NCBI RefSeq assembly: GCF_009177065.1
Contig: NZ_WEZF01000001.1
Span: 1-64,000 of the forward strand
Source: Tautonia marina
Lineage (GTDB): Bacteria > Planctomycetota > Planctomycetia > Isosphaerales > Isosphaeraceae
Length of the DNA stretch: 64,000 nt
Reading direction: 5' to 3'
The first letter of the stretch is position 1. Each line of letters starts with the position of its first letter. Below are positions 51,347 through 56,398 of this stretch, piece by piece. Under the pieces are notes generated by a model. It saw only the letters and a program-made list of their open reading frames with translations. It searched no databases and was not told where the DNA came from. A program made the position numbers and the translations under genes.

Positions 51347-52291
51347 TCAGCGGAAGTTGTAGCCGGGGTTCGTCGGGTCGAAGTCCTCGTCGCTCAGGAC
51401 GACGCTGGGATCGAACGTCTCGATGACGTAGCGGCCGCCCAGGACGGGCTCCGAGCCGGGAGCGTCGGGCCAGTCGTGGAAGGAGTAGGCGCGGGGCAGG
51501 AGGGTTTCGGGGTCGTAGTGGACCTCGAAGCGAGCGAAGGGGCGGTCGGGCGAGGGCTCGACGTAACGATGGAACGATCGGTAGAGGGGTTGGCCCTCGT
51601 CGTCGGTGATCCGGTCGAGCGTGACCGAGGCGTTGGGGTCGTTCAGGTCGCGCTGGATGTCGTTCAGGAGCATGCGGGCGACGGGAAGCACGCCGGCCTC
51701 GGTGATCGGGAAGCGGCTTTGCGACATGGCCAGGCTCGATCGGGGCTCGACCTCGATCGGAGGCATGAGCATGCCGAGCAAGCCGCCGCCGGTGTGGGTG
51801 ATGAGCTTGCCGTTGCGGACCCCATCGACATAGATGATTTCGCAACCTTTGGGGCGGCCGATGTCTTTCATGTAGACCGAGACGGGCTCGTGGCGAACCT
51901 TCAACTGAAGGGTTTGCTCCATGAGCCATCGGCCGTTGACGCGCTCGTGACGCCAGATGGTGGCCTCGTACCCGCGGAGGGCTTCAAGGCGGGTGACCAG
52001 GTCGGTCAAGGCTCCGTTCAGGAGTTGCTTGGCCTTGGGGCCTTCCAACGGATCGAGGGGCCAGTTCGTGAGGCTCTCGTCCAGAGGGGCCGGCGGGTCC
52101 GGTGGGTTCAGAGGAGCCGCGATCGAATCGGCCGGTTCCTCCGAGATCGTTGCGAACGATCCGGCGGCGTCCAGCGGCGCCGCGATCATCCATCGAGCCA
52201 CGAAGACCAGGGCCACGGGCGCCAGGCAGAGGGCCAGGGCTCGCTTGCGGTATTGCCGGAAGGTGAGAAGACGAGAGAGCGTGTCAGTCAT
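51347..52291 (-). CDS. DUF1571 family protein
   Basis: 314 residues from ATG 52291; the upstream extension lacks a good start. A hydrophobic N-terminal segment (ALALCLAPVALVFVARWMIA) probably anchors or exports the protein. The body follows the DUF1571 layout: LVTRLEALRGYEATIWRHER, LQLKVRHEPVSVYMKD, GCEIIYVDGVRNGKLITHTG and a C-terminal RFEVHYDPETLLPRAYSFHD. The fold is thought to be LolA-like, so lipid or lipoprotein handling is possible but unproven. Confidence 0.82.
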   Translation of the reverse strand: MTDTLSRLLTFRQYRKRALALCLAPVALVFVARWMIAAPLDAAGSFATISEEPADSIAAPLNPPDPPAPLDESLTNWPLDPLEGPKAKQLLNGALTDLVTRLEALRGYEATIWRHERVNGRWLMEQTLQLKVRHEPVSVYMKDIGRPKGCEIIYVDGVRNGKLITHTGGGLLGMLMPPIEVEPRSSLAMSQSRFPITEAGVLPVARMLLNDIQRDLNDPNASVTLDRITDDEGQPLYRSFHRYVEPSPDRPFARFEVHYDPETLLPRAYSFHDWPDAPGSEPVLGGRYVIETFDPSVVLSDEDFDPTNPGYNFR

Positions 52292-52782
52292 GGGCAGTTC
52301 ATCAGGGTGGCGAATCGATGATGACGCGAGAGACGACTCGACAGGGGGCGCAGGCCCCGGCCACGATCGCCAATCCTTCGAGGAGCCCGAGCCGGACCAG
52401 GCAATCGGGCGAGGCAAGGAGTTCCGGGAACCTCAGAGGATCGAGGCGTCGGAAAGAGCGGGGGAGTTCTTGAGTCGGAATCACGCGATGCAAATGGAGT
52501 TCCATCGGTGAAAACGTCATGAGTGTCTGGACCAGTTTATCTCGCAACTTGGGGTGTGGTCAATTTTTTCGTCACAGAAATCCGGACAGGGTGGGATCGG
52601 GGCGCAGGGGAAAGCTGGTCGGGTTCGGGTGAGAATGAGGGCGGATTCGCCAGGACTCTGGCATCGGTCGGGCCGATTGGTGCCCCCCTTGACGAGGCAA
52701 GCCCGCTCGCCCTCGACGTGGGTACGTGAGGGGAGCGGGCTTGCTGGATTCAGTCAGACGAGCCCTTGAGACCTGACGGCGA
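52292..52782. other. intergenic region, no confident gene
   Basis: About 490 bases between two minus-strand genes. A minus-strand frame of 81 codons (52302-52547) exists but shows no motif or clear ribosome-binding site. The stretch 52540-52580 is AT-richer and could hold the promoter of the DUF1571 gene. A terminator-like hairpin occurs at 52697-52744. Confidence 0.45.
52697..52744 (-). terminator. terminator-like hairpin
   Basis: GCAAGCCCGCTC (52697-52708) and GAGCGGGCTTGC (52733-52744) are perfect complements with a 24-base loop. It lies 39 bases past the stop of the LE-motif surface protein gene. Confidence 0.68.
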
Positions 52783-54732: not shown

Positions 54733-55009
54733 GATTTCCGCCCTCCTTGGTCAGTCGGCCTCAGATCCAAACCGGCCCCAGCGACGCAGGCGCGCCGGCT
54801 GTCCGGACGATCCGTCACACCGACAAGATCGGCAAGATCGGCCCGAGACATCAGCCCGAGCGTTCGGAACGCCCGTGCTGGGGGAGCGCCCGCTGACCCG
54901 AACGCCGAGCCGGTTGACGATCGAGACCGTTCCAAGCACGATGGAACGCGGGTGTTCATGCGACCGATCAATCCGGGGTGGTTCCCCTGTTCTCAAGGAG
55001 ATTTTTTCG

Positions 55010-55582
55010 ATGCGATGGCGCGCTTCGCATGCCTGGGGCCTGGCGGTTCTGACCGTTTCCGCACTGGGCGCGGCGGCGGTTCTGTCCGCTCAGGCGCCCG
55101 AGTCTGGACCGAAGCTGGGTGAAATCGTCACGCCCTTCGACGTTTACGATGTCACCGGTCCGAACCAAGGCAACGAGCTTTGTTACGTCTGACAGTACGG
55201 AATTAGCCCGGTCGTCTGCATCTTCACGCGGACGACATCCGGGCCCTTGACCAGTTTGGTCAAGGCCGTGGAAGACACGATGGCGGAGCATCCCAGGCTC
55301 AATGCCTTCGTCGTTCACCTGACGGATACCGAGAACGAGGCCAAAACCGTCACGAATCTCCGGAAGATCGCGGCCGATGCCGGGATTTCCAAGATCCCGC
55401 TGACCCTGATGGAAAACCCCGCCGGCCCTCCTGCGTACAAGATCGCGGAAGAGGCTGAGGTGACCGTGCTTTTCTATCGCTTCTTCGATGTCCGAGCCAA
55501 GCAGGCCTTCGGCCCCGGCGAGCTGACCGAGGCCGAGGTCGAACGGGTCGTCGCCGACCTGTCGAAAATTCTCGGTGAATAA
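55010..55582 (+). CDS. putative selenoprotein, exported thioredoxin-like (copy 1)
   Basis: The frame from ATG 55010 (AAGGAG upstream) to 55582 encodes 190 residues, with one in-frame TGA at codon 61 (55190-55192). A signal peptide (WGLAVLTVSALGAAAVLSAQ) precedes VYDVTGPNQGNELCYV, then U, then QYGISPVVCIFTRTTSGPLT. Reading UGA as selenocysteine makes a C58-x-x-U61 redox motif before a strand, as in thioredoxin-fold proteins. The same TGA occurs at the same codon in the neighbour at 55826, while both halves stay open and conserved. A hairpin follows the TGA. The alternative is a stop codon mutation, unlikely given two conserved copies. Confidence 0.72.
55190..55192 (+). other. in-frame TGA, proposed selenocysteine codon (copy 1)
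   Basis: TGA replaces what would be the second Cys of a CxxC motif. The frame is open for 60 codons before and 129 after it. Confidence 0.72.
55207..55243 (+). promoter_or_regulatory. candidate SECIS-type hairpin (copy 1)
   Basis: Starting 14 bases after the TGA, CCCGG (55207-55211) pairs with CCGGG (55239-55243), and TCGTCTGC (55212-55219) pairs with GCGGACGA (55228-55235) with one T-G wobble, leaving an 8-base loop (ATCTTCAC) and a 3-base CAT bulge. The loop begins 27 bases past the TGA, within the range known for bacterial SECIS. A loop G, expected in bacterial SECIS, is only present if the terminal pairs open. Confidence 0.55.
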
Positions 55583-55825
55583 AGGAGCGCGCCGACCCCT
55601 CGCCGCGCTCGTCGTTCGTGCGACGAGGCGCGGCAGGAGTCGGGAACCGTCTGGACCGTTTCGACGACGCAAGGCCTCGGACGGGAGCAACCTGGCGATC
55701 GTCGCGCGACGAAACGCGATCGTCCCGTTGACGATCGGATCGGTTCCGGCAACGATGGACAGTGGAAGTCCACGCGACCGCTCGGCAGGAAGGGTTTGGG
55801 CCCTTTCCGAAGGAGGTTTTTCCCT

Positions 55826-56398
55826 ATGCGATTGCGATCTTCGCACGCCTGGGGCCTGGCGGTACTGACCGTCTCCGCACTGGGTGCGGCGGCGGCCTTG
55901 TCCGCACAAGGTCCCGATTCCGGGCCGAAGATCGGCGATGTCGTCAACGCCTTCGACGTTTACGATGTCACCGGTCCGAACAAAGGCAACGAGCTCTGTT
56001 ATCGCTGACGCTACGGTGCCAGCCCGGTCGTCTGCATCTTCACGCGGACGACATCCGGGCCCTTGACCAGTTTGGTCAAGGCCGTTGATGAGAAAGTCGC
56101 TGAGAACGCCAACCTCAAGGCCTTTGTCGTCCACCTGACGGACACCGACAACGAGGCCAAAGCCGTCTCGACCCTTCGGGACCTGGCGGCTGAAAAGGGC
56201 ATCAAAGAGGTGCCGCTGACCCTGATGGACACCCCCGCCGGTCCTCCCTCGTACAAGATTGCCGAGGACGCCGAGGTGACGGTCCTGCTCTGGCGATTCG
56301 CCGAGCTGCGCTCGAAGCACTCCTTTGGCCCCGGTGAACTGACCGAGGCTGATATCGAACGCGTGCTCGCCGATCTGCCGAAGATTCTGGACGAGTGA
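55826..56398 (+). CDS. putative selenoprotein, exported thioredoxin-like (copy 2)
   Basis: The frame from ATG 55826 (AGGAGG upstream) to 56398 encodes 190 residues with an in-frame TGA at codon 61 (56006-56008), as in copy 1. Signal peptide WGLAVLTVSALGAAAALSAQ; then VYDVTGPNKGNELCYR, U, RYGASPVVCIFTRTTSGPLT. The two proteins differ at many residues (for example IPLTLMENPAGPPAYKIAEE versus VPLTLMDTPAGPPSYKIAED) but keep length and frame, showing selection for the full protein. Homologues I recall have CYRC at this place, so selenocysteine replaces a cysteine. Selenocysteine machinery genes are not in this window. Confidence 0.74.
56006..56008 (+). other. in-frame TGA, proposed selenocysteine codon (copy 2)
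   Basis: At codon 61, at the same alignment position as in copy 1, forming CYRU. Both sides are open in one frame. Confidence 0.74.
56023..56059 (+). promoter_or_regulatory. candidate SECIS-type hairpin (copy 2)
   Basis: Identical in sequence and spacing to the copy 1 hairpin: the 65 bases 56021-56085 equal 55205-55269 without a single difference, although adjacent coding sequence has diverged at both wobble and amino acid positions. Confidence 0.55.

Follow-up and report, generated by a model that had tools for sequence, protein, structure and literature searches.

Two neighbouring genes of Tautonia marina very probably encode exported selenoproteins in which UGA-61 specifies selenocysteine, a hairpin farther downstream (HP2) serves as the SECIS, a second hairpin lying between the two (HP1) shortens the distance to it, and the product has a redox role outside the cytoplasm. 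The genes lie in a stretch of 64,000 nucleotides, hereafter the window. In the proposed mechanism the UGA at codon 61 would be decoded as selenocysteine by the SelA, SelB, SelC and SelD of the host, with SelB binding HP2, the loop of which begins 60 nt after the UGA. The intervening HP1 would fold away approximately 39 nt, leaving an effective distance of roughly 21 nt between the UGA and the HP2 loop in the window genes. The product would adopt a thioredoxin fold of the TlpA/peroxiredoxin type in which a short helix ahead of the central strand begins with a Cys-x-x-Sec redox pair. Its most likely function would be that of an extracytoplasmic reductase, of either the thiol/selenol-disulfide or the peroxide type.

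Both genes are on the forward strand. Copy 1 spans positions 55010..55582 (190 codons and a TAA stop) and copy 2 spans 55826..56398 (190 codons and a TGA stop). Each starts with ATG and holds one internal TGA, located at 55190..55192 in copy 1 (context ELCYV-TGA-QYG) and at 56006..56008 in copy 2 (context ELCYR-TGA-RYG). Read as Sec at codon 61, these complete the motifs CYVU and CYRU at residues 58–61. A sequence-only reading of this DNA had described two adjacent paralogues of 190 codons each with a single TGA at codon 61 in C-x-x-TGA, which the sequence confirms. The ribosome-binding sites that it had claimed are likewise in place, as AAGGAG (54995..55000) and AAGGAGG (55810..55816), both on the forward strand and both 9 bases before the ATG.

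The proteins encoded by the two copies are 73–74% identical, and the duplicated block comprises 669 aligned bases at 77.7% identity. Around 100 bases 5' of each ATG were carried along in the duplication (54910..55009 for copy 1 and 55724..55825 for copy 2, forward strand). The same tandem pair was found in one further genome of the genus Tautonia (G041) and a single copy in two others (G040 and G042), which makes the duplication a recent event in the genus. The tandem duplication of the sequence-only reading thus stands as a local feature, since sister species carry one copy. Tandem duplication of TGA members has happened more than once, as a second such pair occurs in a different bacterial family (L187, G114:C127). 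In another genome the distance between a Sec copy and a Cys copy is no more than ~1 kb (L097, G197:C57). A DUF1571 protein (E 1e-52) is encoded ~2.6 kb upstream of the pair, at window positions 51347-52417 on the minus strand. No DUF1571 gene was found beside the other family members examined, nor was any conserved gene neighbour found in the neighbourhoods of about ten loci.

The Tautonia genome (G000, 7.07 Mb) contains a tRNA-Sec (selC) with anticodon tca, selA (522 bits) and selB (367 bits) adjacent to each other on the same contig, and selD (350 bits), which itself has one in-frame TGA. All four genes that had been proposed as a check on the selenocysteine claim were accordingly found. A search of the genome with Rfam SECIS_1 (RF00031) gave no match; this is the eukaryotic element and it gave no match in the controls either.

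Across 45 genomes from the same bacterial family, each close relative carries a single TGA, always at the same codon, which is more than chance would give. In a scan of named genomes, relatives with TGA were observed in Isosphaeraceae bins and in four Acidobacteriota/Blastocatellia-like genomes, and relatives with Cys at codon 61 in Gimesia, a Schlesneria-labelled bin and others. Other Planctomycetia also have relatives with TGA. The Sec and Cys relatives have in common the motif L-C-Y-x-[U/C]-x-Y, the in-frame TGA aligning with the Cys of homologues between flanks that are conserved on both sides. Codon 61 of homologues is therefore TGA or Cys and the sequence stays conserved past it, as the sequence-only reading had proposed to check, and its interpretation of the TGA as selenocysteine is supported by this exchange together with the Sec machinery of the genome. 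Of 397 genomes in the class, 324 gave a relative at E < 1e-6. At least 5 changes were needed on a tree built from 79 TGA and 38 Cys sequences, the TGA rows having partly been sampled through the hairpin model. The Cys rows of this tree fell mostly into one supported block inside the TGA lineages, which suggests conversion from Sec to Cys.

Two kinds of unusual members were also noted. One gene (L103, G176:C58:63384-63920) has a TGA at codon 58, where the first Cys would be (UxxC), and lacks a downstream hairpin. On account of the absent hairpin this TGA was left uncounted as Sec, and it may be a sequencing error, a pseudogene or something else. Three distant relatives (L043, L044 and L045) lack the CxxU/CxxC motif but show a similar layout (e.g. 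DLVADRAAKPTVYVF) and may represent a branch of this fold without redox function.

Synonymous codons 78–83 were found to be unusually conserved in the TGA genes but not in the Cys genes, and it was the sharpness of this conservation that led to HP2 being spotted by reading that stretch. In copy 1 the hairpin, CCUUGACC-AGUUU-GGUCAAGG, occupies 55245..55265 with its loop at 55253-55257, and in copy 2 it occupies 56061..56081 with its loop at 56069-56073, on the forward strand in both and in both with the loop 60 nt after the UGA. The general pattern, [CU][UC]G[AG]CC-NNNNN-GGUC[AG][AG], starts exactly 54 nt after the TGA. It was present in 40/40 TGA genes, which had been gathered by protein similarity independently of the motif, and in 1/38 Cys genes (Fisher p ~1.5e-21). 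The 7-bp stem is paired in 280/280 cells and three pairs show changes on both sides (C-G to U-A once and U-A to C-G twice). Paired cells and covariation both exceeded every shuffle, counts that amount to a lean and not a probability owing to the relatedness among the sequences. The loop contains the codon for Ser-82, which is AGT in 30 of 30 Ser cases, while AGT makes up 13% of the Ser codons in these genes. Loops were AGUUU, AGUCU, GGUCU and AGGUU, with AGUAU and CGUGU as rare variants, giving the pentaloop consensus N-G-[U/G]-N-N'.

HP2 shares much with the published bSECIS consensus model of the E. coli fdhF type (PMC13188914, Fig. 2), namely an N1-G-[G/U]-N-N2 loop with N1-N2 pairing, a stem of ~7 bp, an energy < -7.5 kcal/mol and a location inside the coding region 3' of the UGA. 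Three HP2 sequences that were folded gave -8.6 to -13.1 kcal/mol, and stem and energy are thus within the limits of the model (4–16 bp; -7.5 kcal/mol or lower). It differs in its spacing, as the model places the loop 16–37 nt from the UGA and the HP2 loop is found at 60 nt, or at 57 or 69 nt in variants, usually with an additional hairpin in between. The same review acknowledges that not every element satisfies the model and that there may be distinct classes (PMC13188914). In the variants the stem starts 63 nt (L195-L199) or 51 nt (L200-L202) after the TGA, so the position of HP2 can shift along with codon gains or losses in the protein. As would be looked for in a bacterial selenoprotein, a SECIS-like hairpin is found 3' of the UGA that is limited to the TGA members save for one Cys gene (L134, G074:C2:22285-22833, minus strand). 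This gene has TGT at codon 61 and the full hairpin at 54 nt in a genome with selA, and its hairpin is probably a fossil SECIS left after a recent change from Sec to Cys.

The selD genes served as a control. In the same bacterial family, 15/15 selD genes with a TGA have a pentaloop (GGUUC, GGUCC, AGUUU and so on) on a 6–7-bp stem exactly 32 nt after the UGA, and this type of hairpin was absent from 3/3 selD genes with Cys. As the pentaloop is of the same kind, the local SelB most likely reads N-G-U-N-N', the loop being 28 nt farther from the UGA in the new family than in selD. Based on its restriction to TGA genes, the covariation in its stem and the recurrence of its loop in TGA selD genes, HP2 is very likely the SECIS of the family, displaced to 60 nt. 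In many selD genes of Isosphaeraceae (L018, L219-L235) a small hairpin is predicted directly 5' of the SECIS hairpin, like HP1 and HP2, and such pairs of hairpins may be the general arrangement in these bacteria.

The 39 nt of HP1 occupy 55206..55244 in copy 1 and 56022..56060 in copy 2 on the forward strand, with the same sequence in both, and abut HP2 with zero bases between. Predicted closure of HP1 was 0.71–1.0 in 40/40 TGA genes (mean 0.98), as compared to 0.43 in protein-preserving shuffles and a mean of 0.45 in the Cys genes. In 40 further loci mean closure was 0.69 vs 0.34 in shuffles, about a quarter of these loci being without HP1. Its sequence, length, loop and register vary between lineages. 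RNAalifold applied to all TGA genes together returned no consensus structure on account of these register shifts. Restricting codon-preserving folding to the first 63 nt gave a modest separation of TGA and Cys genes (z -1.30 vs -0.47, p 5e-4).

The reach of the family was surveyed employing a covariance model composed of the TGA and HP2, which counts hits of that type only. Matches at E <= 1e-9 were obtained in 104 of 397 genomes. selA was present in 95 of these 104 as compared to ~113–133 of the 293 others, depending on the cut-off, or ~45% (p ~6e-18). Out of the 9 matching genomes without selA, 4 have selB, 4 are incomplete and one (G351) has neither. selA was also found in all four acidobacterial genomes of the family. 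Of the 41 matches that were read, all except one proved to be C-x-x-TGA proteins, among them a divergent clade whose motifs are CLV-U, CPV-U, CYT-U and CYV-U; the exception, L203, was dropped as it is in the wrong frame. The distal SECIS hairpin and a large family spanning two phyla go beyond what the sequence-only reading had described.

An explanation without selenium, in which the TGAs are nonsense mutations or readthrough of the UGA inserts Trp or some other amino acid, could appeal to G351. Neither selA nor selB was found in this genome, which is 99% complete, and it nevertheless has a TGA gene (L191, G351:C57:2237-2314) that keeps the loop on a rearranged stem, UGGUC-AGUUU-GACCA. We regard such an explanation as very improbable, as two paralogues and dozens of species have retained the TGA at one codon and conserved the protein beyond it, the alternative residue at that codon is Cys, and the genes are associated with selA and with a conserved RNA hairpin specific to TGA. 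It is also doubtful, to a lesser degree, that HP1 is the real SECIS and that HP2 has a stabilising, pausing or similar function. The apical loop of HP1, ~27 nt after the UGA, does fall inside the standard range of 16–37 nt and, at -24.3 kcal/mol, the hairpin of the window genes is very stable. Its sequence, length and loop differ by lineage, however, and many of its loops lack G at both of the first two positions, whereas the HP2 loop is nearly invariant, matches the bacterial SECIS loop pattern, recurs in selD genes and persists where HP1 is weak.

The AlphaFold model of the protein had a pLDDT of 88, with low confidence for residues 1–25, and its structural neighbours were TlpA, ResA, Tpx and Prx proteins (Z 14–16.5). 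The modelled fold and topology are those of the TlpA/redoxin thioredoxin fold. The fold is shared with FetE (8t4c), ResA (1su9) and Tpx (3hvv) at Z 15–16.5 over 133–150 residues, as is the N-terminal 'vGd..p.F.v.D.tG' pattern of the TlpA/ResA/DsbE and peroxiredoxin/Tpx proteins, but identity is 10–18% and there is no Pfam redoxin match. In the predicted secondary structure C58-x-x-U61 opens a short helix that precedes the central strand (residues 68–73). The canonical site, a CxxC or peroxidatic Cys at the helix start after that strand, is missing; the next helix is predicted from residue 78, and residues 74–80 (R-T-T-S-G-P-L), of which 77–80 (SGPL) correspond to the canonical position, are without Cys. 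Where TlpA and Prx proteins have their 'SDLKGK' loop, the new family presumably has the CxxU. The designation 'thioredoxin-like' given by the sequence-only reading thus agrees with the modelled fold, with the CxxU away from the usual CxxC position. Other CxxU selenoproteins (SelW-like, Trx7/PDZ NF041199 and Prx-SUH NF045827) are also small thioredoxin-fold proteins with C-x-x-U, but their motif follows the central strand whereas that of the new family precedes it. The deiodinase family protein NF038285 showed weak profile similarity over residues 31–96 (E 1e-4 to 0.003), though at bit scores of ~17 against a cut-off of 250. A sequence search of the PDB found no relative, and hhalign against a neighbouring AhpC/TSA protein aligned the N-terminal segment alone.

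Export, which had been claimed on the basis of a signal peptide, is plausible as a prediction from the hydrophobic N-termini, which resemble signal peptides and, in the Gimesia forms, lipoproteins. Our best guess from the motif and the modelled fold is an extracytoplasmic thiol/selenol oxidoreductase or peroxide reductase. Alternatively, selenocysteine insertion may be real in a protein that is not a redox enzyme and that binds a metal(loid) or a substrate. The absence of Cys from the fold's usual CxxC position would fit with this, as would the metal binding suspected for several bacterial selenoproteins (PMC13188914). We consider a binding factor a tentative and somewhat unlikely alternative, as C-x-x-U/C at a helix start is a classic redox pair and both positions are kept in the Sec and Cys forms.

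No matching family was found in Pfam, NCBIfam 20.0 or Rfam, and no NCBIfam selenoprotein model exceeded its curated cut-off. A 2026 inventory of 119 families holds no fitting family and a 2025 paper on a selenoprotein predictor does not mention planctomycetes. Among openly accessible journal papers there was one on planctomycete selenoproteins, the main text of which discusses others. Within this scope the proteins are a large uncatalogued selenoprotein family and the hairpin signal at ~60 nt is new here. We lean towards HP2 representing a distinct bacterial SECIS class, in which SelB would read a hairpin 60 nt downstream while a variable helix folds the spacer away, and which would serve exported selenoproteins of multiple lineages with a Cys-Sec pair placed non-canonically on a thioredoxin fold.

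The spacing rule behind bacterial SECIS search programs would consequently miss a whole class. The folded spacer helix, if true, would offer a concrete and testable explanation for the way in which SelB, bound to a distal hairpin, gets to the ribosomal A site, and the Sec/Cys pairs along with the hairpin-bearing Cys gene are natural controls. For a phylum with a hardly studied selenoproteome, the analysis brings in a large family of selenoproteins that can reach several copies per genome.
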